From Arenibacter sp. 6A1 (GTDB taxonomy: Bacteria > Bacteroidota > Bacteroidia > Flavobacteriales > Flavobacteriaceae): 64,000 bases of DNA. Below, piece by piece: positions 35,294 through 55,071 of this stretch (its first letter is position 1; each line of letters starts with the position of its first letter). Position numbers and translations under genes: made by a program. The stretch spans positions 62,001 to 126,000 of the forward strand of contig NZ_JAAXCQ010000004.1 of NCBI RefSeq assembly GCF_012272855.1, given 5' to 3'. The notes under the pieces were generated by a model, which had not been told where the DNA came from, ran no database searches, and saw only the letters and a list, made by a program, of their open reading frames with translations.

Positions 35294-36424
35294 TTATATA
35301 GTAAGTTTTAATATTCCAGAAGTCCTTACTCCAGGTCTTATTTCGCCCACTGGCAAGTAAATTTCATCTTCCCACACCAGGGCATTGGTCACTATTTGCG
35401 GCAACATAGGCAAGCTTCCTACCTTAGTCCATTGATCATTTTTTGTGTCATACGACCAAAGAATTCTAGAAAAGGAAGTTTCCCGTAACAAAGCCATACT
35501 TTCTTTTTGCAAGGCCTCTTCTTTTTCCAGAAGTCCTTTCTGCGGATAGGTTTGGGACGCTTTAATCTCCTTCATTTCTAGCTCTAATGCTTGCCTTTTA
35601 GCCAAGTGTTGTTGTTCTCCTCCTGCGCCACCAAAAACAAGAATTTTCCCATCATCCACGGCTAGTACAGGAGCTGCTGCTATAAATCCACCCTCTAAAC
35701 CAGGAGTATTATTGGTAGGCACATCCTTCCTTTTCGTCCATTTTTTGGCTTGTATATTATATTCATGGACATCAGAAAGCATTACGGTACTAGGAGTAGC
35801 GTCTTTCTGAAACGACGCACCGCTCATAACATACAAACAATCATCTGTACCATTGTTTTGGCCAATAACAACGGCTTGGGTCCTACCAATTCCAGGGAAT
35901 TGTCCAAGAGGCTCCCATTGTTGCTTGGTTGTATCTACGGACAAGTCTAATGCAAATATATTATTGCCAGCATTCCCCCCAATTTCTTGTTGTCCGCCAA
36001 CCACATAAACAACATCTTTGATGACACAGGCCGACATATTGCATAATGGCACTGGCAGGGCAGGCATTTCGGCTACCAAAATGTTTTTATGCTCACGGTC
36101 CCAAGAAAGGCGAAACACCTCCTTAAAGACCTCTTTTCCATTATCGCCACCTATACAAACAATTCCATTGTCGGTAGATACAGAAACCCCGTAGCCTATA
36201 GGCCGCGGTAGTCTTACAGCTATATTTTGTACCCAATGATAGCCATTATCATCGCTTTGAAGCGCATAAATAGTATCGTACCATACTTTTTTTCCACCTT
36301 CCCATAAATCCTTGTCGGGAAAATTAGCTCCGCCAGCGATGATCATGAGTCCGTTATGTATTCCGCTAAAACAACCGTTCAATCCTTTTTCAACAGGAAT
36401 ATTGGCAACTGTAGTCCCCACCAT
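35294..36424 (-). CDS. nanM: Cyclically permuted sialic acid mutarotase (NanM/YjhT-like), no signal peptide
   Basis: 376 residues of kelch-type six-bladed propeller. Repeats are visible (MIIAGGANFPDKDLWEGGKKVWYDTIYAL; GIVCIGGDNGKEVF; VVYVVGGQQEIGGNAGNNIFALDL; KILVFGGAGGEQQ; ALVWEDEIYLPVGEIRPGVRTSGI). Known family role: interconverting alpha and beta anomers of N-acetylneuraminate. No signal peptide is present and an in-frame stop lies five codons before ATG 36424, so this copy is probably cytoplasmic, unlike E. coli NanM. It lies 83 bases after the symporter fusion gene and is related to that protein's N-terminal half. Confidence 0.82.
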   Translation of the reverse strand: MVGTTVANIPVEKGLNGCFSGIHNGLMIIAGGANFPDKDLWEGGKKVWYDTIYALQSDDNGYHWVQNIAVRLPRPIGYGVSVSTDNGIVCIGGDNGKEVFKEVFRLSWDREHKNILVAEMPALPVPLCNMSACVIKDVVYVVGGQQEIGGNAGNNIFALDLSVDTTKQQWEPLGQFPGIGRTQAVVIGQNNGTDDCLYVMSGASFQKDATPSTVMLSDVHEYNIQAKKWTKRKDVPTNNTPGLEGGFIAAAPVLAVDDGKILVFGGAGGEQQHLAKRQALELEMKEIKASQTYPQKGLLEKEEALQKESMALLRETSFSRILWSYDTKNDQWTKVGSLPMLPQIVTNALVWEDEIYLPVGEIRPGVRTSGILKLTI

Positions 36425-36507: not shown

Positions 36508-39114
36508 CTATTGCCCTTTATTTTTAAATACCAAACTGAACAAGTAACCAAATCCAAAACAAGAAGCGACCCCGATCAGAGAATACATTAAAAAGTTAAT
36601 AGGAGTATATACACTTATGTACCATAATAGTATTCCACTTAAGACCAAACCTATCAAGGTTCCGGTTGCATTGGCGCGTTTTGTAAGCATTCCCAATAGG
36701 AACATTCCACCGAGTCCTCCTGTGAACAGTCCCAAAAATCTATAAAACTGATCCCAAAGCGACTTTATATTGGAGTTGGCCATCCACAAGGCAAGAATCA
36801 CCCCGATCACCCCTACTATCACAGTGGCTATACGGGCCACTTTAAGTAGTTTTACATCACCAATTGTCGGATTATAACGCTTGTATAAATCGTTACAAAA
36901 TGCTGTAGAAACAGAGTTTAAGCTACTACTAATACTAGACATGGCCGCCGAAAAAATTCCCGCTATCAATAGCCCCGAAATACCTACCGGTAGTTCTTTA
37001 ACAATATACCATGGAAAAAGAGAATCGTTGTTTGAAATTGCCGGGGAAAGGTGTTCTGGCATTTCAGAATAAAAAATAAACAACAACGAGCCGATACCGA
37101 AGAATATAATCGTGGCAGGCAAGGTCATTATGGCATTGGTATACAAAGTCTTTTGGGAATCTTTAATACTCGAACTCGTCAAATAACGTTGCACAATAGT
37201 TTGGTCAGTACCTTGCGTCACCATAGCCGAGGCCAGCCCCCCAATAAACACCACCCAAAAAGTAGAATCGGTAAAATTGAGGTCGAAGTTTACTATATTA
37301 AATTTTTCCTGATCAGAAACATAGGTGATCATATCATTAAAAGGCATCTCGGTATGCAATAGCACCCATACGATCGCCACGATACTTCCTCCCATAAGCA
37401 CCACTACCTGTAATACATCGGTCCAAATAACTGCTTCAATACCCCCAAAGGTGGTATACAGCACACATAGTAGTCCCATTAATAGAATACAGGTTTCTAC
37501 AGAGATACCCGTTACAATGGAAATAGCCAAAGAAGGTAGCAATAATACAATCCCTATCCTTCCTAATTGGAAAAGAATAAAAGAAATACTCCCGATGGCC
37601 CTGGCCAAATAATTAAACCTTCTCTCCAGGTATTCATAGGCCGTAGAAATATTGAGCTTATTGAAAAAAGGAATAAAAATAAAGGCGATTACTGGCGTAA
37701 TAGCAATAGCGGCAATGTTTAGGAGAAAGAAAGACCAGTCCGTAATAAAGGCCTTTGCTGGGATAGCCATAAAGGTAATGGCACTTAACAGCGTTCCAAA
37801 AACACTCAAGCCCGATGCCCACCAAGGAATACGCCCGCCTCCTATGAAATAATCGTCCGTAGATTTTTGTTTTCTGGCAAAATACACTCCGATCAACAAT
37901 GATATTAATAGGTACAATACCAATACCGCATAATTCAGAGCCCCAAAGGCATGCGTAGCTTCGAATACTTTTAAACTATAAACGTTCGGTGTTCTGATGC
38001 CAGGTGAAACTTCACCAGACACCAATAATATATCATTGGCTTCCTTTATCCCTAAGGTGGTCACCGGTATCTTTATCGCTAAAGTATCGTATACAAACCA
38101 CTTTTTAGTGATGCTATTATAGGCTATCACTTCATTACTAAACCCTGGGTGGTTATTTAATATGTCGTCTCTTTTAGCGATTAAGCTTTGAACTATACTA
38201 TCATTTTCTTGGGCATTTATCTTTAAAGCCAAGCTTTCGAGTTGATCGAATAATATTTCATCAGAACCACCGTAGACCAAAATCCCCATAGATCCACTGG
38301 TTTCTGCCGTTGCCCCCATGAGTACCCTAGCTTTCCCATCGATCATTAGGTCGCCTTCCTCTATCCAATTTTTCTTCTGTAGGTCATAAGAAAGATAGGT
38401 GGTCAAGGCTTGTGATTTTTTTCCCTTTACCTGGTTTCTACCACCGATTAAGAATATATTTTTTGAATTTGAAGTTTCCTGTACTGCCATGGCATGTACG
38501 GCTCTCGGGGCTCCAGGAAAATCTTTAAGCTTTTCCCAGCTTCCTTTTTTAGATACCTCCAAGCGATAAAAAGAATTGGTACTGCCTTCCTTGTTCATCC
38601 CTCCGGCGACATACACGTACCCATCAACCAAAACGGCTGTAGTGTAGGCCAATGGTTCTGGCAAATTGGGATAATCTATGATATCTATATCCTTTTTGGC
38701 ACTATTATAGGCCAGCAAAAAGACTTTGTCACTAACGAGGTCCTTGTTGTCTCCTCCGATAACTAAAACCCCATCTTCGGTAGACACGGATGCCCCATAG
38801 CCTAAGGGTATTGGCAGCTTTTCTGAAGACAACCGCCAGGTATTGTTTTCTAAAATGTAAATAGACTGGTGCCATTTCTTGGACCCACCCTCCCATGGTA
38901 GTCCAGAAGGGAAGTTTGCACCCCCACCCACAATAACTACATCTTTATGAATGCCACCTATCATTCCGGCATATCCCAAGGATACTTCTCCAGAGACTTC
39001 GGCAGGCAAACTGGGCAAATTGGTTATTTGTATTTTTGATGCCTCCTGTCCAAATAAAAAGGAGGAAAACAAAATAGTGATTACCAGTGAATATAAAATT
39101 CTAGTTACTTTCAT
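36508..39114 (-). CDS. NanM-like mutarotase fused to a sodium/solute symporter
   Basis: 868 residues. Signal peptide (ILYSLVITILFSSFLFG), then a kelch propeller (about residues 25-385; GVVIVGG.. type blades such as VVIVGGGANFPSGLPWEGGSKKWHQSIYIL and EDGVLVIGGDNKD), then an SSS-family transporter (about 390-868) with FIGGGRIPWWASGLSVFGTLLSAITFMAIPAKAF and the Na+-site region YEYLERRFN and LRIGIVLLLPSLA-like helices. The topology puts the mutarotase domain in the periplasm beside the importer, so sialic acid could be converted to the preferred anomer on entry. ATG at 39114 starts the signal peptide; a TTG 12 codons upstream is less likely. An operator-like palindrome lies 53 bases before it. 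Confidence 0.9.
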   Translation of the reverse strand: MKVTRILYSLVITILFSSFLFGQEASKIQITNLPSLPAEVSGEVSLGYAGMIGGIHKDVVIVGGGANFPSGLPWEGGSKKWHQSIYILENNTWRLSSEKLPIPLGYGASVSTEDGVLVIGGDNKDLVSDKVFLLAYNSAKKDIDIIDYPNLPEPLAYTTAVLVDGYVYVAGGMNKEGSTNSFYRLEVSKKGSWEKLKDFPGAPRAVHAMAVQETSNSKNIFLIGGRNQVKGKKSQALTTYLSYDLQKKNWIEEGDLMIDGKARVLMGATAETSGSMGILVYGGSDEILFDQLESLALKINAQENDSIVQSLIAKRDDILNNHPGFSNEVIAYNSITKKWFVYDTLAIKIPVTTLGIKEANDILLVSGEVSPGIRTPNVYSLKVFEATHAFGALNYAVLVLYLLISLLIGVYFARKQKSTDDYFIGGGRIPWWASGLSVFGTLLSAITFMAIPAKAFITDWSFFLLNIAAIAITPVIAFIFIPFFNKLNISTAYEYLERRFNYLARAIGSISFILFQLGRIGIVLLLPSLAISIVTGISVETCILLMGLLCVLYTTFGGIEAVIWTDVLQVVVLMGGSIVAIVWVLLHTEMPFNDMITYVSDQEKFNIVNFDLNFTDSTFWVVFIGGLASAMVTQGTDQTIVQRYLTSSSIKDSQKTLYTNAIMTLPATIIFFGIGSLLFIFYSEMPEHLSPAISNNDSLFPWYIVKELPVGISGLLIAGIFSAAMSSISSSLNSVSTAFCNDLYKRYNPTIGDVKLLKVARIATVIVGVIGVILALWMANSNIKSLWDQFYRFLGLFTGGLGGMFLLGMLTKRANATGTLIGLVLSGILLWYISVYTPINFLMYSLIGVASCFGFGYLFSLVFKNKGQ

Positions 39115-39163
39115 AATAAAAAATAATTTCCGTGACTTTTGAAGCGACAAGATAGTAAAACAA

Positions 39164-39183
39164 GTATTATGTATAACATATTA
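39164..39183 (-). promoter_or_regulatory. Predicted GntR-regulator operator, symporter gene
   Basis: Core TTATGTATAACATAT at 39167-39181 with one mismatch in the outer arm; matches the GT-N3-AC pattern of FadR-type operators. Reverse complement TATGTTATACATAATAC is identical to the sequence before the 2-epimerase gene. It lies 53-67 bases before the symporter start, between lrgB and that gene. Confidence 0.75.
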
Positions 39184-39238: not shown

Positions 39239-39931
39239 CTAAAGAAACCAGTCTATCATATAGGGCGTTGCTACTGCAGTTACAATTCCATTTACACACA
39301 TAGCCAAGCCGCTATAGACACCGGTCAACTTGCCCTCTTCCAAGGCCCTTGCCGTGCCAATACCATGAGCGGCCGTCCCCAATGCGGCTCCTAAGGCCGA
39401 TTTACTGGTAATTCCCAAGAGTTTAAGAATCGCGGGGCCAAAGGCATTCCCAAAAATACCAACAAGAATAACTATCCCGGCCGTAATTTCCGGAATCCCC
39501 CCTATAATTTTGGAGACCTCTATAGCAATAGGGGTAGTAACGGATTTGGAAGCTAGGGACTTTACAATAACCAGGGGCACATTAAAGAGAAGTAAAATAA
39601 GGACAACGCTAACAATACTCATAAGACCACCTACAATAACCGCTATAAAGAAAGGAATAAAATCGTTCTTTATCTCCTCGTATTTTTCATAAAAGAACAC
39701 TCCCAAGGCCACGATAGAAGGACCAAGGAAAAAAGTCAATAAATCCCCGCCCTTATTATAGGCGTCTATATCGATCTTAAAAACCACCAGTACTACAATA
39801 ATAGACAAGGTAGCCATCAGCACTGGATTGAAAATGGCCAAGGGTATTCTTTTTCTAAGGGCATTGGCCCCAAAAAAAGCTAATAAGGTAATAAAGACAC
39901 CGAAAATCGGACTTTCGAACAAATTATCCAT
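39239..39931 (-). CDS. lrgB: LrgB/CidB-family (PftB-type) membrane protein
   Basis: 230 residues, about six or seven membrane helices. The family signature region is present: KSVTTPIAIEVSKIIGGIPEITAGIVILVGIFGNAFGP (about 130-168) and SALGAALGTAAHGIGTARALEEG (about 178-200). LrgAB were first described as modulators of murein hydrolases; B. subtilis PftAB and S. mutans LrgAB transport pyruvate. Its start overlaps the lrgA end by 8 bases. It lies inside a sialic acid operon, where the lyase produces pyruvate, so a pyruvate channel is an attractive reading (inference). Confidence 0.9.
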   Translation of the reverse strand: MDNLFESPIFGVFITLLAFFGANALRKRIPLAIFNPVLMATLSIIVVLVVFKIDIDAYNKGGDLLTFFLGPSIVALGVFFYEKYEEIKNDFIPFFIAVIVGGLMSIVSVVLILLLFNVPLVIVKSLASKSVTTPIAIEVSKIIGGIPEITAGIVILVGIFGNAFGPAILKLLGITSKSALGAALGTAAHGIGTARALEEGKLTGVYSGLAMCVNGIVTAVATPYMIDWFL

Positions 39932-40262
39932 TTTTACCGAATTTTTGAAGAATGATAGCGGTCAGGTATAAAGTAATCACCGCACTAACCACCACCGCTA
40001 TGGCAATATACAGCCAATAGGCTTGTATCAGTTCAAAATAAGCGAGCAAGCCAACGCCATATGGGATAAAAAATAACACCAAATATTTAAGGAGCTTATC
40101 CGAGGCAGGTTTCACTGCGCTGAGTTTAATGAGGCCAAATTTTAAGGCGAAAAATATTAAAAACATCCCCACAATATTCCCCGCTATGGGTATATGAAGA
40201 ACTTCCTTTAAAAATTCACCTAAAACTAAAAAAGAAAAAATATACAAAAGCGATTTTACCAT
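39924..40262 (-). CDS. lrgA: LrgA/CidA-family (PftA-type) membrane protein
   Basis: 112 residues with four membrane helices, the usual size of this holin-like family. Typical motif: GEFLKEVLHIPIAGNIVGMFLIFFALKFGLI (about 16-45). It is translationally coupled to lrgB and lies 167 bases downstream of the 2-epimerase gene, with a long hairpin in between. It is expected to form a complex with LrgB. Confidence 0.9.
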   Translation of the reverse strand: MVKSLLYIFSFLVLGEFLKEVLHIPIAGNIVGMFLIFFALKFGLIKLSAVKPASDKLLKYLVLFFIPYGVGLLAYFELIQAYWLYIAIAVVVSAVITLYLTAIILQKFGKNG

Positions 40263-40321: not shown

Positions 40322-40364
40322 ACTCCCGTTATTTCTCAAAAAATTTTCGAGGAATAACGGGAGT
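40322..40364 (-). other. Hairpin between the 2-epimerase gene and lrgA
   Basis: ACTCCCGTTATT and AATAACGGGAGT form a perfect 12-bp stem around a 19-base loop, 65 bases after the epimerase stop. No strong T-run follows on the minus strand. It may be a terminator, an attenuator or an mRNA processing site that sets lrgAB expression below that of the epimerase. Confidence 0.55.
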
Positions 40365-40429: not shown

Positions 40430-41605
40430 TTACTTTGTAGAGGCTTGCTGTTTTGCTTCAATATTTTCAAAACTTTTCCAACATTGGAACATAGCTCTAG
40501 GCACGTGGAAACATCCCTTCCATTTCCCTCCTTTTAAGGTTAGCAAAGGTCTCCCTTCCCTATTGAGATATCCAAACCACTCCCCATTCTCGGCATCGGA
40601 GAAATGTGACCAGGCATATTCGTGTACCTTTTCGTACCATGCCCATATTTTTTGGTCTCCGGTTTGCTCATATGCTTTGGACAAGGCCACCAAAGTTTCT
40701 AAATGTACCCACCATAGTTTTTGATCCCATTCTAATTGTTGCAGCGGTTTCCCTTTGGCATCCAGAAAATAGAAAATTCCACCGTTCTCTTCGTCCCAAC
40801 TATATTCTAAAATATTTAGGATGACTTTGTTTGCTTTTTCTATCAGATCCCTGTCATTTTTTCTAACCCCTATATCAATCATAAACCACATGGCTTCTAT
40901 ACCGTGGCCCGGATTTAACAATCTGCCGTTATAACTATCTTCCAAGGAACCGTCGAGCCTTACATTCTCATAAATAATACCGGAATCTTTTTGCAAAAAC
41001 ACCTCCATGACTTCCTGCACACTGAAGTTGATGGTTTTTTCTATTTCTTCCTTATCCAGAACATCCTCTAATTCTAACACTAGGTTAGACAAGATCATGG
41101 GCAAGGAAAAGCCTTTTAAAGGCCGTGCATCCGTATTTTTCTCATAGCCCCCCTTAGGATTGTCCTTTTTCTTTAGAATGTTATAATAGGTTTGTTTTGC
41201 CAAGGCTCTTATCTCCTCGTCTCCTGTAGCTTTCGCATATTGGCTAAAAGCCATAGCCGCGAAGCAGTCAGAAAATATATTATAAGGCTGTACCAATGGT
41301 TTTCCCTCCTTGGTCACCGAAAAATAAAAGTTCCCATCTTTATCCATTCCGTGATTTCTGATAAAATCTATTCCGGATTTGGCAATTTCCAACCATTTTT
41401 CATTTTTCTCTACTTTATTATAGAGCATAGAAAATGTCCATGCTTGTCGCCCTTGGAGCCACATAAATTTATCCGTATCATACACTTCCCCTTTTTGATC
41501 GAGACAGGTAAAATATCCGCCATTTTCTTGGTCCAGGGAATGCTTTTCCCAAAAAGGTACCACATCGTTTAGCAAGGTCTGCTTATATAGTTCTGAATAT
41601 TTCAT
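40430..41605 (-). CDS. N-acylglucosamine 2-epimerase (ManNAc to GlcNAc)
   Basis: 391 residues, the usual AGE/renin-binding-protein length, (alpha/alpha)6 barrel. Landmarks: [35 protein letters not shown] (about 28-62), the catalytic His region [17 protein letters not shown] (about 232-248) and [17 protein letters not shown] (about 308-325), and [12 protein letters not shown] near the end. Members act on GlcNAc/ManNAc or on cellobiose and mannose; the locus points to ManNAc to GlcNAc, replacing the NanE/NanK route. It is the first gene of the operon that continues to lrgAB, the symporter and the mutarotase, and it is divergent from the regulator. Confidence 0.88.
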
Positions 41606-41614
41606 TTGGATTAT

Positions 41615-41639
41615 TTATGTTATACATAATACAAATCTA
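41615..41639 (-). promoter_or_regulatory. Predicted promoter -7 box and GntR operator, 2-epimerase operon
   Basis: On the minus strand an exact -7 box TAGATTTG (41632-41639) is directly followed by the operator core TTATGTATAACATAA (41615-41629), which ends 9 bases before the start codon. The core is a perfect 6-3-6 palindrome. Bound repressor would cover the transcription start. Confidence 0.78.
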
Positions 41640-41787: not shown

Positions 41788-42507
41788 ATGAGTAAGCTAC
41801 CATCAATAAAACCATTAGAGAACGTATCCTTAGTAGACAAGGTTGAAGCCCGTTTATTGAAATTTATCAAAGAGAACAATTTAAAGGCCGGAGATTCTGT
41901 TCCCAAGGAAATGGAATTTGCAGAATCCTTAGGAGTTAGCAGGACTGTTGTACGCGAAGCTTTTTTAAGATTGCGGACCTTGGGGATCATTGAATCTAAG
42001 AAGCACCGCGGGATGATTATTACTAATCCCGATATCATGAATAACTTTGAGCGAATGCTAGACCCTGTCCTTTTAGGTTCTGATACGTTGAAAAATTTAT
42101 TTGAATTACGATTGATTTTAGAAATGGGGATGGCCGACTTTCTTTTTCAGCACAAAACGGAGAAGGATATGCAGGAGCTCGAAGAAATTGTAACCTTAGA
42201 AGAAGAAACCAGCTATAATAAAAACGCCTTCTCATTGGACAAGGAAATTGCTTTTCACGGCAAATTATATGAAATGTCTAAAAATGATATTTTAAAGAAA
42301 TTCCAGGATCTTTTACTTCCTGTATTTGAGTATGTACACCTGAACGACCCCAACTTAAATGACTACGAATACTCTAGCGGACAATTTGTTACCCACAGAA
42401 TGCTAATGGACAATTTAAAGGTAGGGACACCAGATACTTTCCGGGTAGCCATGCACCGCCACCTTGAACCTCATTTTGATAAGATTTTTAATAAGAAAAT
42501 AAAATAG
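41788..42507 (+). CDS. FadR-type GntR transcription regulator of the sialic acid locus
   Basis: 239 residues. N-terminal winged helix (about 10-85): LLKFIKENNLKAGDSVPKEMEFAESLGVSRTVVREAFLRLRTLGIIESKKHRGMII. C-terminal all-helical FCD domain (about 100-230) with metal or ligand residues in LRLILEMGMADFLF, FHGKLYEM and HRMLMDNL...MHRHLEPHF. E. coli NanR belongs to the same subfamily and senses N-acetylneuraminate. The effector here could be sialic acid or an intermediate. Palindromes of the GT-N3-AC type in front of four transcription units of the locus are the predicted targets. Confidence 0.9.
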   Translation: MSKLPSIKPLENVSLVDKVEARLLKFIKENNLKAGDSVPKEMEFAESLGVSRTVVREAFLRLRTLGIIESKKHRGMIITNPDIMNNFERMLDPVLLGSDTLKNLFELRLILEMGMADFLFQHKTEKDMQELEEIVTLEEETSYNKNAFSLDKEIAFHGKLYEMSKNDILKKFQDLLLPVFEYVHLNDPNLNDYEYSSGQFVTHRMLMDNLKVGTPDTFRVAMHRHLEPHFDKIFNKKIK

Positions 42508-42530
42508 CGGCAATAGCCGCTATTTTTTTT
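42502..42530 (+). terminator. Intrinsic terminator of the GntR gene
   Basis: AAATAGCGGC and GCCGCTATTT form a perfect 10-bp stem with an AATA loop and a T-run. The stem includes the stop codon (42505-42507). Confidence 0.92.
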
Positions 42531-42657
42531 GCATCAGCCCCAAGATTCGGATCAAGCTTAAAAGTTGTGTGTAGTTGAAATAATCAGGCACCACAATAAC
42601 AATAATCTACCTTTGATCAGGCCTTTCAATACTTTTTTCCATTGATGAAAAAAGTAT

Positions 42658-42876
42658 TCAAAAAAATCTAGGCTGATTTCTCCTTTCTTGAAATCTTCGG
42701 ATTTTCCACCGCCGCAGCGCCCAGGCCGCTTTCACTAGGGTGAAATGCTCTTTGGACGCCTTCCATAAACCAATGTGAAAACCCCTTGATTTACTACCAA
42801 AGGAGAAAGTAGGCCGAAAACTTTTATTAGACGCCACTTGTGTGGTCTTCCCAACCTGCAGATCGCTAAAGAAGGA
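42658..42876 (-). other. Start-less open frame, possible gene relic or intergenic element
   Basis: A 72-codon frame free of stops on the minus strand, without ATG. It reads as a basic, tryptophan-rich peptide (GFHIGLWKASKEHFTLVKAA, ALRRWKIRRFQERRNQPRFF). Its G+C is above the surroundings. The peptide gives the impression of a recurrent flavobacterial intergenic sequence, but I cannot verify that. No function is suggested. Confidence 0.3.
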
Positions 42877-43246
42877 CTAAAGCTATTGCTTAAATTTTAG
42901 ATTTACGAAATCCTTTAAAAAACAAATAAAAACCACTTTAGATAAATTGAAAGAGCATTTGGTTGAGGTGAAAGGTATAAAATAATTGAAATCCGATGAA
43001 TAGATCCTACTCAAAACCAACATTAATCATAAACACAATGATTAGTCATGATCCCAAGATTCCTGCTCTGTTTCTCGGCCCGAGCCAATTGTAGCTACTC
43101 TTTTTCTCTCTAGTACAAGGATTCATTTGTAGTTATTTGTTTTTTATAACCATCAATTGTAATTCGCGTAGCTCAATTCATATTTGCGAGCAGTTGCCTA
43201 TAATGCTTATTTCAAACTCCAAATTGGCCATTGATACTTGAATGCC

Positions 43247-43329
43247 GCGTTAGGGACCGCAGCGGCATCCCCGCAGCGGAGCAAGGGATATAGCGGAGTG
43301 CCCGACCGACGAAGGAGGGAACGCCCAAA
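43247..43329 (+). repeat. 83-bp GC-rich intergenic repeat, copy C
   Basis: Same orientation as copy A and 78 of 83 bases identical to it; differs from copy D at a single position. The inner hairpin is CGCAGCGG-catcc-CCGCAGCG with one A-A mismatch. It lies in the spacer between the regulator and sialidase genes, inside the sialic acid locus. Confidence 0.9.
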
Positions 43330-43405
43330 ACTTTTTGATAGAAACGAAAGGGCTATACCTCGAAAAAACATAGGTTATGCATCACACATTGTTTTGATTT
43401 AACTC

Positions 43406-43443
43406 CAAAAAAAAACAGCTTTAACCTTGGATGGCTAAAGCTG
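43406..43443 (-). terminator. Intrinsic terminator of the sialidase operon
   Basis: On the minus strand CAGCTTTAGCC and GGTTAAAGCTG form an 11-bp stem (one G-U pair) with a 6-base loop, followed by a run of nine T. It lies 24 bases after the sialidase stop. Confidence 0.92.
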
Positions 43444-43466
43444 CATTTCTTAAATCCTATATTTTC

Positions 43467-44612
43467 TTACTTTCTACCTTTCTTAGAAGGCTTTTTATAC
43501 TTATCCTCTCCGTCTGTCAACCACTTCAAAGAAAAGCTTACAAATGGGTTTTTAGTATAATCGTCCTGCTCAAAGAACAATCCAATATCACCATTTTTTA
43601 AGATAGTCATAGAAGAATAAGCAGATCCACCGGTATAAATAGTCTTCCCTTCAGACCATGTTTTACCTTCATCATAACTAACACGCACGGTCATGTTCTG
43701 TCTTCCTTTTTCCATTTTGGCGTTAGAGAAAAGCAAACGGTTTTTATTATAACCATCCTCAATAGAAGTATAACGTACGATACTGGCATTACAGCCCGGA
43801 TCTATTAACTGTGGCTCTGGCGTAGTAGTCCAAGTTTTGCCCTCATCGTTAGAAAGGTGAACATAACGCATTCCGCCTTTGTTTACCCTAGCATTGATCA
43901 TCCAAGTACCATCGGCCAATTCCATAACCTTAGACTCATCAGCCGGCTGAATAGGCGTATCGATAAGGTACCAAGACTTTCCATGGTCGTCACTAGCGAA
44001 TAAATGTAGCCCGCTATTTAGGTTTACCATAGTATGCAATAACTTGCCAGATCTTGTTTGTATACCACGTCCTGAAGTAATGAATTTAAAATCCTTATGC
44101 CATTCTGGTTTGGCAATTTCCGGAGTAATATCTCTTGGCTGTGACCAAGTCTTTCCGTTATCGGAACTCGTTACTACGTGAAAATAATACACATCTTTCT
44201 CCTTGTCCAAATCCATATAGTTATAAAACATAAATATTTCTTTGGTCTCGGCATCCACGATCATGGAAGGATCGGAAACAGACTGTCCGTATGGCAAGTT
44301 TACCACAGTTTCGGTATCGGTCCATGTTTTTCCGTTATTACTACTTCTTTTAATAACGATATTAATATCCTTGCTCCATTTTAAATCGCCACATCCTGGT
44401 ACTCTTTCATCAATAGCAGCAATAAGATCGCCATTGGGTGCCGTTACAATAGCCGGAATTCTAAAACATTCAACACCTTCTACGTTCGCAGCGTTAAATA
44501 GGTCTTGATATACCTTTACGCCATCAGCAATCTTATGTGTTTCTGTTTGCGCCTGTAGCACCATTGAGGTGCAAATTAATAATCCGAAAAAAATCTTTTT
44601 CATACTCAACAT
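43467..44612 (-). CDS. nanH: Exo-alpha-sialidase (GH33), exported
   Basis: 381 residues. Signal peptide (KKIFFGLLICTSMVLQAQ). The FRIP motif is at about residue 48 (FRIPAIVTAPNGDLIAAIDER), and five Asp-box repeats of the form SxDxGxTW are visible (SSNNGKTWTD, SSDNGKTWSQ, SDDHGKSWYL, SNDEGKTWTT, SYDEGKTWSE), which is full count for a six-bladed sialidase propeller. It releases terminal sialic acids from glycans in the periplasm or at the surface. ATG at 44612 is taken, but ATG at 44603 (MKKIFFG) is equally possible. Last gene of the lyase operon or of a sub-operon with the creatininase-like gene, 32 bases upstream. Confidence 0.92.
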   Translation of the reverse strand: MLSMKKIFFGLLICTSMVLQAQTETHKIADGVKVYQDLFNAANVEGVECFRIPAIVTAPNGDLIAAIDERVPGCGDLKWSKDINIVIKRSSNNGKTWTDTETVVNLPYGQSVSDPSMIVDAETKEIFMFYNYMDLDKEKDVYYFHVVTSSDNGKTWSQPRDITPEIAKPEWHKDFKFITSGRGIQTRSGKLLHTMVNLNSGLHLFASDDHGKSWYLIDTPIQPADESKVMELADGTWMINARVNKGGMRYVHLSNDEGKTWTTTPEPQLIDPGCNASIVRYTSIEDGYNKNRLLFSNAKMEKGRQNMTVRVSYDEGKTWSEGKTIYTGGSAYSSMTILKNGDIGLFFEQDDYTKNPFVSFSLKWLTDGEDKYKKPSKKGRK

Positions 44613-44644: not shown

Positions 44645-45418
44645 TTACTCGTACATTTCATTAAGATCGGTAGCCGCTAGGTCTTCTAAAAACTCGCCTA
44701 TATTTTGTACCGATCGATCGAAAAAGGCCTTTCCATTTTCCTTATTGGCCAGTTTCGGATTTCCCACTCCAGTATCCTCGGTTACTTTTGTCCATTGCCG
44801 TTGTGCGGTCACCCATCCTTCTTTCAATCCTTTTATTTTAAAGGTTTTCCCTATTCCCGAACCGGCTTCTTCCAAAGGCAACACCAACTCTGGTGTCAAA
44901 TGCATTACCACGGCAGTTTCGAGTTCCCCGGCATGATCGCCAGGCTCCTTAAAATAGTCCTTGGAATCGGCTGTATTCCACCAGTTTAGAGCACAAACAA
45001 ATACCTCCGGAAAAGCAATACTCAGCTCTCGGATAAATTGTTTAAAATTGTTACCTCCATGCCCGTTGACGATAACGAGTTTATCTATATTGTGCGCTGC
45101 CAAAACTTCTACGACATCCTTTAACACAGCATATTGTGTACTAGGACTCATATTCATACATAGCTTTACATCCATTTGCCCTGTATTTACGCCAAATGGG
45201 ATGGTGGGCAACACTACTGTTTTGGCCCCTTTGCTCCACGCCAATGCTGCCGCTGCAATAGCTACATTTTCCGATAAAATATTATCCGTGGCATAGGGCA
45301 AATGATAGTTATGGGCTTCGGTAGCTCCCCAAGGCAATATCGCTACCTTATAATCCGTGTCTTTTACAGATTTCCAATTGTTGTCCGCTAAAACGTAGGG
45401 TCTCACATTCTGTGCCAT
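44645..45418 (-). CDS. Creatininase-family metal-dependent amidohydrolase
   Basis: 257 residues, no signal peptide, so cytoplasmic. Metal ligands of the family are visible: Glu in LPWGATEAHNYHLPYATDN (about 29-47), Asp/His of YATDN, His in VNGHGGNNF (about 118-126) and Glu in DHAGELETAVVMH (about 163-175). Known members open cyclic amides (creatinine) or hydrolyse formamide and mycofactocin peptides. A substrate in sialic acid metabolism is not known to me. It sits 32 bases before the sialidase gene and 208 bases after the SGNH esterase gene. Confidence 0.85.
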   Translation of the reverse strand: MAQNVRPYVLADNNWKSVKDTDYKVAILPWGATEAHNYHLPYATDNILSENVAIAAAALAWSKGAKTVVLPTIPFGVNTGQMDVKLCMNMSPSTQYAVLKDVVEVLAAHNIDKLVIVNGHGGNNFKQFIRELSIAFPEVFVCALNWWNTADSKDYFKEPGDHAGELETAVVMHLTPELVLPLEEAGSGIGKTFKIKGLKEGWVTAQRQWTKVTEDTGVGNPKLANKENGKAFFDRSVQNIGEFLEDLAATDLNEMYE

Positions 45419-45626: not shown

Positions 45627-46280
45627 TCAATTCACCAAAGGCTTAATGACCTTTTTCCAACGCTTATACCCCTTAGGAGCTAAATGCAAGCCGTCATAGG
45701 TATATTTTGGTTTTAAAACGCCTTTAGCGTTTCTAAAAGCCCGGTGGAGATCTATATAGCTCACCCCCATTTCCTCAGACAGGGTTTCGAGTCTTTTATT
45801 GACCAACAGAATTAGCTGCTGATTGCTTTTATGGCCCGAAAATTTATCGCCCACCTGTGGATTTACCGGTAGAATACTCTGTACGAATATTTGAGTATCT
45901 GCAGACGCCTCCTGAATTTTGCGCAACAATACAGTTACATTTTCTACAACTTCATCGGCAGATTTCCCTCTGGCCAAATCATTGGTCCCAACAAGCAAGA
46001 ATATTTTCTTTGGTCTGGACGACGTCACTTCTGATAGCCTATTTAAAATGCCGTCGGTTACATCGCCACTAATACCTCTGTTGACGACGTTTTTATTTGG
46101 AAACATTGCCTTCCAATCGCCTCCTTCGGTGATACTGTTCCCTAGAAAAATTATTTCACCCTCCGTGTCCGGCGTATTTTCGAACATTGCTTTTCGTTGA
46201 TAGTAATGCTCAGAATATTTTTGGGCATTTATGGCTACCGTAAAAAGACAACAAAGGATAAAAATTAACAACTTACTCAT
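45627..46280 (-). CDS. Exported SGNH/GDSL hydrolase, probable sialate or sugar O-acetylesterase
   Basis: 217 residues. Signal peptide (LLIFILCCLFTVAINAQ). SGNH blocks in order: IIFLGNSITEGGDW (Ser, about 44-57), NRGISGDVTDGIL (Gly), LLVGTNDLARG (Asn, about 95-105) and YDGLHLAPKGYKRW (Asp and His, about 195-208). Related small esterases remove O-acetyl groups from sialic acids and other sugars. It lies 22 bases after the GH20 gene on the same strand, which supports a role on decorated sialoglycans. Confidence 0.85.
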   Translation of the reverse strand: MSKLLIFILCCLFTVAINAQKYSEHYYQRKAMFENTPDTEGEIIFLGNSITEGGDWKAMFPNKNVVNRGISGDVTDGILNRLSEVTSSRPKKIFLLVGTNDLARGKSADEVVENVTVLLRKIQEASADTQIFVQSILPVNPQVGDKFSGHKSNQQLILLVNKRLETLSEEMGVSYIDLHRAFRNAKGVLKPKYTYDGLHLAPKGYKRWKKVIKPLVN

Positions 46281-46302: not shown

Positions 46303-48396
46303 CTAAAAAGAAGCGTCGTAAATTAAATCTTTCACTTCTCGTACATTCGTTCCATTTATTTCTACCGGAACACAACTAAACATCCACTTCCATGAATTTC
46401 CTCCATGTGGAATTTTTAACAGGACGGTATTCCATCCTTTGTTCAAATTAACCAGCGTCGGTTTTCTATAAAAGTAATCTTCATCGATAAAGGGTATTTC
46501 GTCCGTGGCCGATCCTAAGTTTGGCTGTTTCCAAGTTGGTGGCAATACCGGCGTATCGTTCACCCATATTTTTGGCTCGGTAAAATGCCACTGCCCTATT
46601 TTCGGCGATGGCCCTCCTCTTCTACCTCCAGAGCGCGACCATCCTTGAAAGCCTATCCAGAATTCCTGTAGCCTATTATTTGGTGAGTAAATTCTCGTAT
46701 AAGCATAATAGGTGCCAGATTTTGCTTCCGTAAAAGCGGGGAAATTAAAGAAATGCTTTAAGTGTACTGTACCCCCAACAGGATCGTCATTCCATTTGTA
46801 TTCCGTCCCATCGAGCTCGTAAGCCGATTTAATTTCCTCCTCTACCGGAAATTTTTTAGCAAAATCGCCTTCATGGTCAAATGGACCAATAATTTTCCAA
46901 AACTTATCTGTTTGCCTTATATAAGGAAACTCTTTATCCTCAAAATATAGGTCCCTATGAACAAGAACTTTATCTTCAAATTCCTTGAAGGCCATAAATT
47001 CTTTCGTATTTTTTGCCGGTAATTTTGCCCAATACTCAGGATAGTCCTTTTCTTTTCCTCTCCAAATGGCTTCGGAGTAAAACACAAGGGACGGATAAAT
47101 AGGGTTTTGCCTTAGAATATCGCGCTCCTCCAATACATTATTATCGGGCCATGCCCCTAATATACCTCCCAAGGCCAAAGAATCTCCTTTAGGCTGCCTG
47201 GCGGGCTGTTGGAAAAACAATCGAGCCATGCCCGCAAAAGGATCTAAGTGATTGATGTAATTACTGCGAGAATCTATAAAACGATGCCCTTTTCGTCCTT
47301 CATGGTATGCCCATAATTGGTTGATGGAAGTACTATCTTCCGGAATAACAATGCCTTCTTTCCAAACAATAACTTCCCTGTTCTGGCTTTTTATATGCTC
47401 CATAATAGCCAAGATCATTTCATCTTCGACATATTCGGCTTCATTTCTCACTTCATCGGTTCCTATATGGATATAGGGCATCTCTTTTTCATCGGCCAAA
47501 CCGCACAACTCACTAAAAAGATCTAAAAGAATAGGCAATACCCTTTCATCTTTCATGGTCTTAATTCCCAAACCTTTTCTAAAGGCATCGGTATGTCCAG
47601 GAATATCTAACTCGGGTATAACCGTTATATACCGCTCTTTGCAGTACGCTAAAATTTCTTTAAAATCTTCCTGTGTATAGTATTTGCCTACCCCTCTACT
47701 AAAGGCCTCATCGGACTGTAATTGGGGATACAACTTGCTTTCTAAACGCCAACCGGGATTATCGGTTAAATGCCAGTGGAAAGTATTGTATTTATATAGG
47801 GCAAGGATATCTATTTGCTCTTTTAGCTGCGCTACACTTTGGAAGTTTCTTCCGGTATCGTGCAAAAGACCTCTAATTTCAAAAACTGGCCAATCCTTTA
47901 TTTTTACTTGTGGTAACATCCACTGGCCCTGCTTCTTTCGCAGGAGTTGCTTAAAAGTCTGTAATCCGTAAAAGGCTCCTTGAGGAGTATAGGCAGTGAT
48001 CACAATTTCTTTCCCGACACTTAACGTATAGCCTTCTTTTTTTTGGGAAGCATTAAAATTATCGCTTTTTATAAGTTTTACCGCCAAGCCATTCTTACTT
48101 ATAGCTATTTCTTGCTCCGTAAAAAACGGTGCTAAGGACATCCCTTCCTTTAAAAAGTCATTCCCTTTTATATCAATGGACTTAAAGCGTACTTCTTTTT
48201 TTCCGTACGCCAATTCCTGTGGCGTGGGAATTAGAGGATACTTTTCTTCAAGTGGGGTATTAATGATATGATTCGCATAGCTTGTGAAAGTTAAAATCAA
48301 AAACAAGCCTGCATAAATGGTTCCTAAAACCTTAAAGGCCGCCTTTTTTTTTATAAGAGGCTGGCTTTCATCAACATATTTTAAGTATTTCTTCAT
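46303..48396 (-). CDS. Beta-N-acetylhexosaminidase (GH20), exported
   Basis: 697 residues. N-terminal basic region and one hydrophobic helix (VLGTIYAGLFLILTFTSYA, about 24-42) serve as signal or anchor. A GH20b domain (about 55-155) precedes the catalytic barrel: FHWHLTDNPGWRLESKLYP, VIPELDIPGHTDAFRK and the catalytic Asp-Glu in YIHIGTDEVRNEAEYV (about 311-326). A C-terminal beta domain of about 170 residues ends with a carbohydrate-binding look. It removes GlcNAc or GalNAc exposed after desialylation. It is in the lyase operon, 15 bases after the acetylesterase gene. Confidence 0.92.
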   Translation of the reverse strand: MKKYLKYVDESQPLIKKKAAFKVLGTIYAGLFLILTFTSYANHIINTPLEEKYPLIPTPQELAYGKKEVRFKSIDIKGNDFLKEGMSLAPFFTEQEIAISKNGLAVKLIKSDNFNASQKKEGYTLSVGKEIVITAYTPQGAFYGLQTFKQLLRKKQGQWMLPQVKIKDWPVFEIRGLLHDTGRNFQSVAQLKEQIDILALYKYNTFHWHLTDNPGWRLESKLYPQLQSDEAFSRGVGKYYTQEDFKEILAYCKERYITVIPELDIPGHTDAFRKGLGIKTMKDERVLPILLDLFSELCGLADEKEMPYIHIGTDEVRNEAEYVEDEMILAIMEHIKSQNREVIVWKEGIVIPEDSTSINQLWAYHEGRKGHRFIDSRSNYINHLDPFAGMARLFFQQPARQPKGDSLALGGILGAWPDNNVLEERDILRQNPIYPSLVFYSEAIWRGKEKDYPEYWAKLPAKNTKEFMAFKEFEDKVLVHRDLYFEDKEFPYIRQTDKFWKIIGPFDHEGDFAKKFPVEEEIKSAYELDGTEYKWNDDPVGGTVHLKHFFNFPAFTEAKSGTYYAYTRIYSPNNRLQEFWIGFQGWSRSGGRRGGPSPKIGQWHFTEPKIWVNDTPVLPPTWKQPNLGSATDEIPFIDEDYFYRKPTLVNLNKGWNTVLLKIPHGGNSWKWMFSCVPVEINGTNVREVKDLIYDASF

Positions 48397-48411: not shown

Positions 48412-50481
48412 TTAATTGGTCACATTAGAAAAGGTTGCGGCAGGCAACTTTTCTTTATTAATTAGATTGCCATCGGTATAAGAAGTGTATCCATATCTGA
48501 CATATCTAGGTTTTTTTATTTTTTTTGATGTAAGTAACAGCACGTTCTTTTTGATCCTAGCCTTGGCGGGCACAAAAACCTTATCGGCTCCGGCTATCTG
48601 AATATCGCGCAACGCCTCTCCGTCTGAAGTGCCAAGGCCTTCTCCAAAAAGAAAATGTACTTCCAAGGTATCATCTTTTACGTTGACAAAATCGAACAAA
48701 GGTCCAGAATATGGTATATTCATCCCATAATTTTTTGCCAAGGCCGTTTTGGCCAATCGTTTTCCGAGCACCCATTTTTGTTTGGGATGCACATCGGTGG
48801 GGTGTCCTACATCCGAAGACACCACCATCCCTGTATTAGGAATGTCCAATAATTTTCTTTGGGAATCTCTAAACGCCCCCCAACCAGGCCTATTGATACT
48901 GCTAAGCTGCACATAATTAAATGGCATATTTGGATTATTCCAATGATTTCTCCAATCGCGCACCAAAAGGGCAAACAATCTGGAGTGCAACTGCTCTCGC
49001 TCTGCATTCGATTCGCCCTGGTACCAGATAACACCTTTGATAGGATAGTTTTTTATAGGATTAATACCGGCATCAAACAACATGGTAGGATCAAACGGAT
49101 GTCTTGCTTTAACGCCTGACTCCCGCATATTCTGCATATTTTTTGCCTTGCGTTCATTTACCCATGGCTGCACAAGAGGGTGTTTGTGGGTATCGTTTAG
49201 CAAACTAATGGTTTCATGGGTTGTTTCCATGGCCTCCCTACTAATCCAACTTTGGGTGGTCGCCCCACCCACGGCGTTACATATGACCCCAATAGGAACA
49301 TTTAATTGCTTTTGAAGATGATAGGCATAGGAGTAGGCTACGGCAGAAAAATTGGCCAACTCCTCCCCCGAGGCTTTATTCCACCCGGATGCTTCAAAAT
49401 AATTTGCCGCATTACAATTTTGCAGTTCTTCCCTGGAAAAACTATGGTTGGAGGTTTGCGCCTTGCCATCCATAGAAAACAAAAAAACCTTGGTATTTAA
49501 GGAGTCTTTTAAAATAGTACGCCCCTGCTGGTCCTCTCTGACCTTAAAATCCATATTAGATTGTCCCGAGGCCAACCATACTTCACCTACATATACCTCC
49601 TTTATATTAACAGCCCCCGATTTTTTAGAATCTATAGTGAGTTTATAAGGTCCACCCGCCTTTTGTGATGGAAACTGAACACTCCATTCCCCATGAACAG
49701 ACACTTTGGTTTGCAGTAATTCCCCATTAAAAGCAACACTAATCTCGTCCAAGGCATTGGCCGACCCGTGAACTTCTATGGGCAGGTTTCTTTGAAAAAC
49801 CATGTTTTCGCCAAATAGCAAGGGCAGCTTTATGTCTCCATAATCCCCACTGATATAGCGATACATTTTATTGGCAATGATAGCAGCCCCTTCTTTGGCG
49901 GGGTGCAGATCATCTGCATAGTATTCCGGAAATCTATACAAGGGTTCATGCAAGTCAATTACATCAACCCCGGCTAGATCTTTCACTATTTCTATTTTAG
50001 CTTGAATTTCCTGATAATTTTCGCGCATCCCTTCTTCAAACCAATGATGACCAGAAAAAGAAGGACTCATTTTGGAAATCACCACCCTGGGTCGTGAAGG
50101 CAGCTCGCGATACGCCTGAATAAAGTCTAAGTAATCCTGTACAAATTCTTCCTTATGATCGGGCCAATTATTATTGCCTTGATCGTTTAGCCCTAGGTGA
50201 ATAATCACCAGGTTCGGCATAAAGGATTTGGAGGCTTCAAAAACAGGCTTATCCCAATAAGGTTTATGACCATTCTTAAGCAATGTTGCCCCAGGAAACC
50301 CAAAGTTCATCACCTCATACCCATCGCCCAATAATTGCTGCAAGCGGTAGGGATAAGAATTCACTTCACGCTGCTCGACTCCTGTACCATAGGTTACACT
50401 ATTCCCTACACAAGCAATCTTAACTTTTTGTGCTTGCAGGGAAAAAACCAAAAAAAAACCAATCCAAACTAGATTTCTCAA
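48412..50481 (-). CDS. Two-domain sialate O-acetylesterase (SGNH plus SIAE domain)
   Basis: 689 residues. Signal peptide (RNLVWIGFFLVFSLQAQ). The N-terminal domain (about 20-215) is a full SGNH hydrolase (CVGNSVTYGTG; NFGFPGATLLKNG; IHLGLNDQGNNNWPDH; DDLHPAKEG). The C-terminal domain (about 220-650) is the SIAE/SASA type (PLLFGENMVFQRNLPIEVHG; GEVWLASGQSNMDFKV; IGVICNAVGGATTQSWIS; GVIWYQGESNAE). Two esterase active sites would remove acetyl groups from different positions. The start is TTG, because the frame has an in-frame stop four codons upstream and no earlier ATG. Second gene of the lyase operon. Confidence 0.9.
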   Translation of the reverse strand: MRNLVWIGFFLVFSLQAQKVKIACVGNSVTYGTGVEQREVNSYPYRLQQLLGDGYEVMNFGFPGATLLKNGHKPYWDKPVFEASKSFMPNLVIIHLGLNDQGNNNWPDHKEEFVQDYLDFIQAYRELPSRPRVVISKMSPSFSGHHWFEEGMRENYQEIQAKIEIVKDLAGVDVIDLHEPLYRFPEYYADDLHPAKEGAAIIANKMYRYISGDYGDIKLPLLFGENMVFQRNLPIEVHGSANALDEISVAFNGELLQTKVSVHGEWSVQFPSQKAGGPYKLTIDSKKSGAVNIKEVYVGEVWLASGQSNMDFKVREDQQGRTILKDSLNTKVFLFSMDGKAQTSNHSFSREELQNCNAANYFEASGWNKASGEELANFSAVAYSYAYHLQKQLNVPIGVICNAVGGATTQSWISREAMETTHETISLLNDTHKHPLVQPWVNERKAKNMQNMRESGVKARHPFDPTMLFDAGINPIKNYPIKGVIWYQGESNAEREQLHSRLFALLVRDWRNHWNNPNMPFNYVQLSSINRPGWGAFRDSQRKLLDIPNTGMVVSSDVGHPTDVHPKQKWVLGKRLAKTALAKNYGMNIPYSGPLFDFVNVKDDTLEVHFLFGEGLGTSDGEALRDIQIAGADKVFVPAKARIKKNVLLLTSKKIKKPRYVRYGYTSYTDGNLINKEKLPAATFSNVTN

Positions 50482-50565: not shown

Positions 50566-51471
50566 CTATACCTTAGCGGTATGAGACATTATATCCAACG
50601 CCTCCAATTCTGCCTTAGCTTCTTTTAATTGAGCTTCGGAAAGAGTAGTATGCGGGAATCTACTTGGTCCACAATCGATCCCTAAAACTTTCATAAATGA
50701 TTTTGCCGCTCCGTTAAAGCCACCTTTAGCGTTTAACACATCGACAAACTTCATAGATTTTGCTTGTAATGTTGCTGCCAATTCGTGATCACCTTTATTA
50801 AAAGCCTCTAACACGGCTAAGTATAATGGTGCTAAATGATTATAGGTACTTCCTACCCAACCATCGGCTCCAAAAGGCAAACTCGCCAAGAAAATCTCGT
50901 CAAAACCAAATAAAATATTTGCAGAACCATTATTGAAGTCCTTTGCGTATTTATAATCGATTAGATTGTTATTGGTAAATTTAATTCCAGCTAAATTCGG
51001 AATCTGCGGTGTTGCTAATTCCAAAAACTCGGCCATTGAGAAATTTGCACCGGTCAAGACAGGAATATGGTAATAGTAAAATGGAAGGTCTGGCGCACAG
51101 GCAGCAATTTCCTTACAGTATGCAATCAGCTTATGAATATCTGACAACCTAAAATAATAAGGTGCCAAAACAGCAATTCCGTCCATGTTATGATCGGCAG
51201 AATGTCTTGCCAAATCCTTGGCTACTTCTAAACTGGTGTCTCCAACATGATTGATTACAAAAAAATCTTCAGGCTTATTTTGGCCCCAAGCTTTTGCTAT
51301 ATCTTTTCTTTCCTCAACGGTCAAGGAAGTAAAATCTCCGGTAGAACCATTAATAAAAGCACCTTTAACACCATTTTTCTTTAAAAATTTCCCATATTTA
51401 GGAATTATATCTAAATTTAGCGAAGTATCCTCGTGCATAGGGGCATACGTCGCAGCAATAAGTCCATTCAT
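50566..51471 (-). CDS. nanA: N-acetylneuraminate lyase
   Basis: 301 residues, usual length of the DapA/NanA fold. The substrate-binding GSTG motif is at 42-45 (NGSTGDFTSL), the catalytic Tyr at 134 (FYYYHIPVLTG) and the Schiff-base Lys at 164 (AGIKFTNNN). The YYYHIPVLTG pattern and T at 166 are of the sialic acid lyase type and not of the dihydrodipicolinate synthase type. It cleaves N-acetylneuraminate to ManNAc and pyruvate in the cytoplasm. First gene of the minus-strand operon, divergent from the SusCD pair, with an operator-like palindrome 15 bases before its start. Confidence 0.92.
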   Translation of the reverse strand: MNGLIAATYAPMHEDTSLNLDIIPKYGKFLKKNGVKGAFINGSTGDFTSLTVEERKDIAKAWGQNKPEDFFVINHVGDTSLEVAKDLARHSADHNMDGIAVLAPYYFRLSDIHKLIAYCKEIAACAPDLPFYYYHIPVLTGANFSMAEFLELATPQIPNLAGIKFTNNNLIDYKYAKDFNNGSANILFGFDEIFLASLPFGADGWVGSTYNHLAPLYLAVLEAFNKGDHELAATLQAKSMKFVDVLNAKGGFNGAAKSFMKVLGIDCGPSRFPHTTLSEAQLKEAKAELEALDIMSHTAKV

Positions 51472-51485
51472 CTTTTTTGTATTTA

Positions 51486-51533
51486 ATATGTATTACATAA
51501 TACAAACATACTCAAAGATTTTGAAGCGTACAA
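51486..51533 (-). promoter_or_regulatory. Predicted promoter and GntR operator of the nanA operon
   Basis: On the minus strand: -33 TTG (51531-51533), 20-base spacer, exact -7 box TATGTTTG (51503-51510), then operator core TTATGTAATACATAT (51486-51500) ending 14 bases before the start codon. The arrangement is the same as at the 2-epimerase operon. Confidence 0.8.
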
Positions 51534-51760: not shown

Positions 51761-51809
51761 TTTGTTAATAATATTTTTTTCTTTAGTATTGCATTATGTA
51801 ATACATAAT
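51761..51809 (+). promoter_or_regulatory. Predicted promoter and GntR operator of the locus susCD pair
   Basis: -33 TTTG (51761-51764), 19-base spacer, -7 box TAGTATTG (51784-51791, one mismatch), then the perfect 17-base palindrome ATTATGTAATACATAAT (51793-51809), ending 10 bases before the start codon. It shares the TTATGT-N3-ACATAA core with the other three sites. Confidence 0.8.
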
Positions 51810-54800: not shown

Positions 54801-55071
54801 TAGTGAATCTTCTTATAGCTTACAAAACTACGCAAACCAACAATTCTGGGAAAAAGGAGATTATTTAGCGCTTAGAGAGGTAACTTTAAGTTATAATGTC
54901 CCTGCAGAGTACTTTAAAAATACCATCAAAAGACTGAACGTTTACGTAACCGGCTCTAACTTACATTACTTTAAGAGTATGAGTGGTGATACCCCAGAAA
55001 TTGGTGGTGTTCAATACGGAGCATTCCCGCTTCCAAAAACGATAACGATAGGACTTAATCTAACATTTTAA
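51820..55071 (+). CDS. SusC-type TonB-dependent receptor, sialoglycan locus (NanO-like)
   Basis: 1083 residues. Signal peptide ([18 protein letters not shown]), beta-sandwich ([40 protein letters not shown]), linker [21 protein letters not shown], plug (about 120-230; [19 protein letters not shown]) and barrel to the C-terminus ([15 protein letters not shown]). It shares the general design with the other SusC in this window but is clearly a different receptor. In Tannerella and Bacteroides the NanO/NanU pair imports sialic acid; the location next to nanA points to the same role here. Codon use appears rather more TTA- and AAC-biased, as in highly expressed genes. Confidence 0.92.
   Translation: [1083 protein letters not shown]

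Follow-up and report, generated by a model that had tools for sequence, protein, structure and literature searches.

A recurrent LrgAB gene pair in flavobacterial sialic-acid loci and its possible role in handling pyruvate

The lrgAB pair and the locus around it

The window (the whole stretch of DNA analysed, 64,000 nucleotides from Arenibacter sp. 6A1) carries a pair of genes for LrgA and LrgB inside a locus for the use of sialic acid (Table 1). The open reading frames have bases 39924-39931 in common, which is the 8-base overlap given in the first-pass annotation, and they do stand, as it also said, between the gene for N-acylglucosamine 2-epimerase (AGE) upstream and a gene for a sialate-type symporter downstream. 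The symporter (SSF) is fused to a NanM-like beta-propeller, and we call this gene NanM-SSF. Transcription on the minus strand runs from NanA through the SASA esterase, GH20, GDSL, creatininase and sialidase genes and then, beyond the GntR gene on the opposite strand, through AGE, lrgA, lrgB, the NanM-SSF fusion and NanM. The locus that surrounds lrgAB therefore holds all three of a lyase, an epimerase and a transporter.

We take this to be a real sialic-acid locus because the SSF, NanA and BNR proteins match solved relatives. The best PDB match of the SSF half is 5nv9 (E = 3.4e-119), which we take to be the sialate transporter SiaT. NanA falls below the NCBIfam cut-offs for this family (152 of 281 and 127 of 382 bits), and its best PDB matches are solved N-acetylneuraminate lyases. 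The layout is identical in Arenibacter nanhaiticus, whose LrgB is 97% identical to the window's.

Table 1. Features in and near the lrgAB pair, with positions in the window
Feature	Position	Strand	Basis
NanM-like mutarotase	35294..36424	-	PF24996, 149 bits
NanM-like beta-propeller fused to SSF symporter (NanM-SSF)	36508..39150	-	Profile matches; SSF half against PDB
Candidate nan operator 5' of NanM-SSF gene, past lrgB	39167..39181	.	26.0 bits
lrgB, CidB/LrgB family membrane protein, 230 aa	39239..39931	-	Pfam LrgB, AlphaFold2
lrgA, 112 aa	39924..40262	-	ORF, Pfam LrgA
Hairpin with U-rich tail in AGE-lrgA gap; possible terminator or attenuator	40322..40364	-	Fold
AGE, N-acylglucosamine 2-epimerase	40430..41605	-	NF052547, 657 bits (cut-off 600)
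Candidate nan operator 5' of AGE	41615..41629	.	23.1 bits
GntR/FCD regulator, probable operator reader	41788..42507	+	Profile matches; operator reading from position
Sialidase (BNR)	43467..44612	-	Matches sialidases, including solved ones
Creatininase-family amidohydrolase	44645..45418	-	PF02633, 190 bits; PDB 3lub, E 6e-63
GDSL esterase	45627..46280	-	Domain match
GH20 hexosaminidase	46303..48396	-	Domain match
Sialate O-acetylesterase-like protein (SASA/GDSL)	48412..50481	-	Domain match
N-acetylneuraminate lyase, NanA-like; presumed pyruvate source	50566..51471	-	Best PDB matches
Candidate nan operator 5' of NanA	51486..51500	.	27.5 bits
Candidate nan operator 5' of SusC	51794..51808	.	27.6 bits
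SusC-type TonB-dependent receptor	51820..55071	+	Domain match

We assigned the pair to the LrgA/LrgB (CidA/CidB) family because LrgB is above its Pfam cut-off (243 bits for PF04172, cut-off 25) and LrgA adjoins it (93.9 bits for PF03788, cut-off 28). Both are below the cut-offs of the corresponding NCBIfam models (210.8 of 249.7 bits for LrgB, TIGR00659; 68.1 of 112 bits for LrgA). No second LrgB was found in the genome. In the AlphaFold2 model of LrgB (mean pLDDT 91.3), a helix is broken at residues 127-132, and S130, V131 and T132 at the break, along with the neighbouring P134, are invariant in 43 LrgBs. The predicted break with its invariant residues would suit a transporter site; it names no cargo. 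The model had no match among PDB folds at E ≤ 0.001 (the best was E = 2.2), and the LrgB alignment had no match among PDB sequences at E = 0.1.

Two other features of the locus may be of interest. The NanM-like propeller lies at the N-terminus of the sialate-type symporter, and long matches that span this whole fusion recur in related nan loci. The gap between the GntR and sialidase genes (42508-43466) has about 960 bases with no open reading frame of at least 90 amino acids; by eye, it includes a GC-richer stretch that resembles a repeat element, and there are terminator-like hairpins at both of its ends.

Recurrence with sialic-acid genes and LrgB phylogeny

Recurrence of the neighbourhood in related genomes had been set beforehand as a test, and lrgAB is linked to nan genes in Arenibacter, Maribacter, Gelidibacter and Gramella, as well as in further bins. 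We surveyed 199 genomes of Flavobacteriaceae, one per genus. LrgB was above cut-off in 11 of these and AGE in 16, and five had both (G000, G013, G023, G030 and G142). In three of the five (G000, G013 and G142, the window's own genome included), LrgB and AGE are within 6 kb of each other. This proximity exceeds chance (binomial probability about 6e-7, or 9e-5 without the window's own genome). The other 11 AGE-positive genomes have no LrgB (one of them, G170, is 77% complete), so LrgAB must be dispensable and optional. Across 395 genomes of the phylum, LrgB was above cut-off in 11 and AGE in 18. Both genes were present in three of these, G000, G376 and G450. They share a contig in G000 alone, and so in neither of the two sampled genomes from outside Flavobacteriaceae that had both (G376 and G450).

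To cover more relatives, we used an alignment of six LrgB sequences to scan public genomes and took the best 80 of the 525 relatives that were confirmed. Among these 80, 41 (L101-L140 and L144) have LrgBs at least 56% identical to the window's, and the others are at most 48% identical. With the window, these make 42 clade loci; three of their genomes are also in the survey (G013 is L133, G030 is L138 and G031 is L108). In all 41 loci fetched from the best 80 of 525, lrgA adjoins lrgB.

By context, the 42 clade loci from the best 80 of 525 divide as follows: AGE or NanA on the lrgAB contig in 15 (the window, L101, six Gelidibacter, L119, L132, L135, L123, L124, L127 and L129); creatininase and sialidase with no AGE found in two (L112 and L134); creatininase alone in 14 (ten Salegentibacter, three Zunongwangia and L109); a MurNAc/GlcNAc cluster in three, all Salinimicrobium; the nan operator only in one (Galbibacter, L138); and none of these contexts in seven (L113, L114, L116, L118, L120, L121 and L128). 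As far as the stretches were fetched, 25 of the 42 lie outside a nan-type neighbourhood, which counts against LrgAB as an accessory of sialic-acid use. The absences at L109 and L126 are weak because these contigs are under 7 kb.

In the four Maribacter/Arenibacter loci (L123, L124, L127 and L129), the coordinates place AGE, NanM-SSF, NanM, sulfatases, SusC, a SusD-like gene and lrgAB in one cluster. NanM was seen in three of the four fetched stretches, a large sialidase gene is in the cluster in three of the four, and there are two sulfatases (from a Pfam run on L123). We infer from its place beside SusC that the cluster of 500-amino-acid proteins in these loci is SusD. Arenibacter certesii also has a second, broken piece of lrgB (L127:19435-19985), flanked by a second SusC/SusD-like pair on one side and a further sialidase-like gene on the other.

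In a tree of 84 LrgBs, the window-like proteins are monophyletic with support of 100/100 and stand apart from the other flavobacterial LrgBs. (L141, L147 and L153 were dropped beforehand, as they had no usable open reading frame, and the 57% identical LrgB of G100 is absent.) The clade has 43 rows: the window, the 41 loci fetched from the best 80 of 525, and G142, whose LrgB is 44% identical to the window's and has a long branch and an unsure place. The tree program also warned of long branches meeting elsewhere in the tree. Mapped onto this tree, the nan label requires 3 changes, compared to 12.0 in shuffles. We considered whether different LrgABs had been recruited into nan loci independently and found no support for this, as the LrgB of G142 falls inside the same clade, with the uncertainty given above.

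Candidate operators near lrgAB

A 15-bp palindromic candidate operator, TTATGTANNACATAA, precedes the AGE, NanA, SusC and NanM-SSF genes in the window. With at most one mismatch, there are 4 sites in the window, compared to a mean of 0.0 in 10 Markov samples of it. Among the 12 other survey loci with both AGE and NanA, nine have a site with at most two mismatches before at least one of the AGE, NanA, SusC and NanM-SSF genes; L055, L058 and L063 have no such site before any of them. The GntR protein probably reads this operator, to judge by the position of its gene.

We also searched whole genomes for TTATGTANNACATAA with one mismatch and discarded the result: G000 had 25 matches (16 forward and 9 reverse) against 15 for a reversed-pattern control, and the other five genomes had 8 against 12, 25 against 23, 24 against 27, 6 against 4 and 14 against 21. 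At genome scale the 15-bp pattern alone lacks specificity, so we used a 21-bp weight matrix instead. Its training set was 35 sites, all of them before AGE, NanA, SusC and NanM-SSF and none before lrgA. As background we used 1,045,395 positions in 63 loci that were chosen for lacking an AGE-type nan locus. One of these positions scored at least 12 bits, and it must be the site before lrgA of Galbibacter marinus, as that site was in the set.

The Galbibacter site scores 14.3 bits and lies 61 bp upstream of lrgA. In this genome (G030), the nan locus and the GntR gene are on contig 9 and lrgAB is on contig 2; their positions would leave more than 40 kb between them even with the two contigs joined end to end. 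The four Maribacter/Arenibacter loci also have an operator upstream of lrgA (at 146-163 bp; 15.0, 17.2, 16.1 and 19.2 bits in L123, L124, L127 and L129). These five candidate operators would link lrgAB to the control of sialic-acid use. Creatininase genes that lead toward lrgAB have operators in L119 (21.3 bits) and L132 (19.5 bits). Upstream of lrgA, no site reaches 2 bits in the other 36 clade loci fetched from the best 80 of 525. Judging from these sequences, lrgAB seems to belong to the sialic-acid regulon of flavobacteria.

Against this, lrgA of the window has no operator of its own (the best score with the 21-bp matrix is -0.8 bits), and lrgAB is set apart from AGE rather than coupled directly to it: the 167-bp gap between them contains a strong hairpin (region z of -4.7). 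The outer 12-pair stem of the hairpin is identical in A. nanhaiticus, with differences in the inner part and the tail. A simple terminator scan of the window did not list this hairpin. Transcripts from the AGE operator might read through the hairpin into lrgAB, or lrgAB might have an unrecognised promoter.

Outside the nan loci, TTATGTANNACATAA occurs in G000 before a gene for a GH2 enzyme and, by eye, behind a GH20-like end. In G142 it occurs before an alpha-galactosidase-like gene (with the centre of the fetched locus taken to be the site). The GH2 and alpha-galactosidase-like sites fit a sialoglycan regulon.

Possible cargoes and comparison with known systems

We propose that LrgAB is a gradient-driven inner-membrane channel for small monocarboxylates that has been added to the sialic-acid regulon of flavobacteria as an accessory and handles the pyruvate from NanA. 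We see the chances of this proposal as evenly balanced. Sialic acid would enter via the SSF symporter, and a cytoplasmic NanA would cleave it to give ManNAc and one pyruvate. (By eye, the N-terminus of NanA shows no obvious signal peptide, so the pyruvate should arise in the cytoplasm.) LrgAB would then let surplus pyruvate out and, later, back in. The first-pass annotation had suggested that LrgAB balances the pyruvate from the lyase, and this idea gains from the recurrence, from the Galbibacter operator and from what is known of the family; the cargo and the direction of transport we infer. For nan loci, family knowledge points to pyruvate as the likeliest cargo: PMC5626966, PMC6790026 and PMC8805020 report pyruvate transport for the members that were tested, among them the two that the annotation named, B. 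subtilis PftAB and S. mutans LrgAB.

The commonest neighbour of the window-type LrgAB clade, among the loci from the best 80 of 525 relatives, is a creatininase-family gene, and this is so in genomes without AGE as well. As to the CREATININASE link, 26 of the 41 loci fetched from the best 80 of 525 have a creatininase gene no more than 10 kb from lrgB; AGE or NanA is within 10 kb in 10 of these 41, and in more if wider stretches are taken. In the family survey, creatininase is above cut-off in 42 of the 199 genomes. It is present in all six that have a clade LrgB (P = 7e-5), and within 5 kb in five of the six (G000, G013, G030, G031 and G100 were assigned by 55-63% identity, and G142 by the tree only, at 44% identity). 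It is above cut-off in none of the five with another full-length LrgB (G014, G023, G084, G117 and G153). Salegentibacter and Zunongwangia have a tight run of three genes, Creat-lrgA-lrgB, and AGE was above cut-off in none of the four searched genomes from these genera whose lrgAB stands with creatininase alone. Hence the cargo is not NanA pyruvate everywhere, unless there is a lyase elsewhere in these genomes.

These observations raise the possibility that LrgAB carries the putative acid product of the creatininase or another amino-sugar acid (acetate, glycolate from N-glycolyl sugars, or D-lactate), and that NanA pyruvate is incidental or one of several cargoes. We consider this somewhat unlikely. 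It would fit with the plant homologue PLGG1, which moves glycolate and glycerate. However, creatininase is also found in nan loci with no lrgAB nearby (L060-L063 and L066), and 15 of the 41 lrgAB stretches fetched from the best 80 of 525 have no creatininase (in four of these, the nan cluster has one at a greater distance).

The nearest solved relative of the window's creatininase, 3lub, is a putative creatinine amidohydrolase. Alignments of the creatininases show a motif near the N-terminus in which Glu, His and Asp are kept; these are presumably metal ligands. Creatininase-family genes occur in flavobacterial nan loci both with and without lrgAB, and the Creat-lrgA-lrgB trio occurs elsewhere. 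As a clue to the reaction, we considered distant creatininases (50-55% identical, 18 loci) and gave this up, as their neighbours were uninformative: 10 of the 18 loci have cytidylyltransferase, phosphatidylserine decarboxylase and acyl-CoA-binding genes (families from one locus, L079).

A wider range of cargoes is also suggested by Salinimicrobium. Near its lrgAB there is a GH3 gene cluster in all three loci, with MurQ in L140 and NamZ in L137, and Salinimicrobium nanhaiense combines a member of the window-type LrgB clade with MurQ. MurQ frees D-lactate, which is a C3 acid. Given the creatininase and MurNAc contexts, a cargo other than pyruvate, or wider than pyruvate, fits equally well. Across L137, L140 and L126 we also noticed a GH3 protein with a beta-lactamase domain, MurQ, NamZ, NagB, and NagX-like and NagP-like proteins.

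It is very unlikely, in our view, that lrgAB is only a passenger with no role in sialic-acid use, inserted in an ancestor and kept by linkage. The single LrgB clade, with its 3 changes of the nan label, does imply few independent events, and most AGE-positive genomes manage without LrgB; but the place of lrgAB varies by genus (in the gap between AGE and the symporter gene, after the sialidase, or beside SusC), and in Galbibacter lrgA keeps its operator though it is distant from the nan locus. Least likely of all is that LrgAB controls murein hydrolases or lysis as a holin or antiholin, and is in the locus by chance or for the release of cell contents: CidA and LrgA of S. aureus were holin-like in a lysis-cassette assay and peptidoglycan-sugar genes surround lrgAB in Salinimicrobium, but those clusters look catabolic (with MurQ, NagB, NagP-like and NamZ over the three loci), and the repeated linkage and the operator in common with sialic-acid catabolism argue against lysis.

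Our preferred reading, that LrgAB is an accessory channel for NanA pyruvate, could be extended to an acid vent in the amino-sugar catabolism of flavobacteria. The LrgAB clade would be wired by the nan operator to the breakdown of sialic acid, in Salinimicrobium it would serve the breakdown of MurNAc, and the creatininase would add an undescribed acid-releasing step. We think this extension rather unlikely. If it is true, then a C3 acid per sugar (pyruvate from NanA or D-lactate from MurQ) can leave the cell or re-enter it, and possibly feeds neighbours.

The first-pass annotation knew of no described sialic-acid locus with lrgAB, and our search agrees: in the literature on LrgA/B or creatininase together with sialic acid, MurNAc or each other, and on flavobacterial sialic-acid loci or NanR, with limited coverage of subscription journals, no title or opening of an abstract described a sialic-acid or MurNAc locus with lrgAB. 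In passages of PMC13265617 and PMC6281302, both subjects occur, but apart, and those of PMC4207797 concern lrgAB only. LrgA and LrgB proteins are widely annotated as regulators of lysis. A clade that is tied to a pyruvate-freeing pathway by gene order and by an operator provides an argument, from outside the Firmicutes, for viewing the family as metabolite channels. By-products of the analysis are a candidate operator for the flavobacterial sialic-acid regulator and a pathway context for a creatininase-family gene.

Nan loci of the Bacteroides/Tannerella type contain AGE, the lyase, SusCD, sialidase, esterase, GH20 and mutarotase, as in the window. The described loci of this type are not known to contain lrgAB, the creatininase-family gene or the NanM-SSF fusion.

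Among characterised LrgABs, PftAB (YsbAB) of B. subtilis is a two-gene LrgA/LrgB pair, as in the window. It is a facilitated, two-way system for pyruvate with a Km of about 1 mM (PMC5626966). PftAB is induced through the two-component system LytST with extracellular pyruvate, whereas in the window's clade it is the nan operator that is found in relatives. The LrgABs of S. mutans and S. aureus belong to the same families as the window's proteins, and uptake of pyruvate was shown for them (PMC6790026, PMC8805020 and PMC12632267). PMC6790026 describes re-uptake of pyruvate by S. mutans LrgAB; S. mutans without LrgAB still excretes pyruvate, and the authors considered LrgAB not likely to act in export. 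S. mutans LrgAB is under LytST control, again unlike the nan operator near lrgA in the window's relatives. For S. aureus, PMC8805020 reports pyruvate transport by LrgAB under low oxygen. The plant protein PLGG1 is a homologous LrgA-LrgB that carries C2-C3 monocarboxylates; it is fused, plastidic and has a cargo other than pyruvate, whereas LrgA and LrgB of the window are encoded by separate genes.
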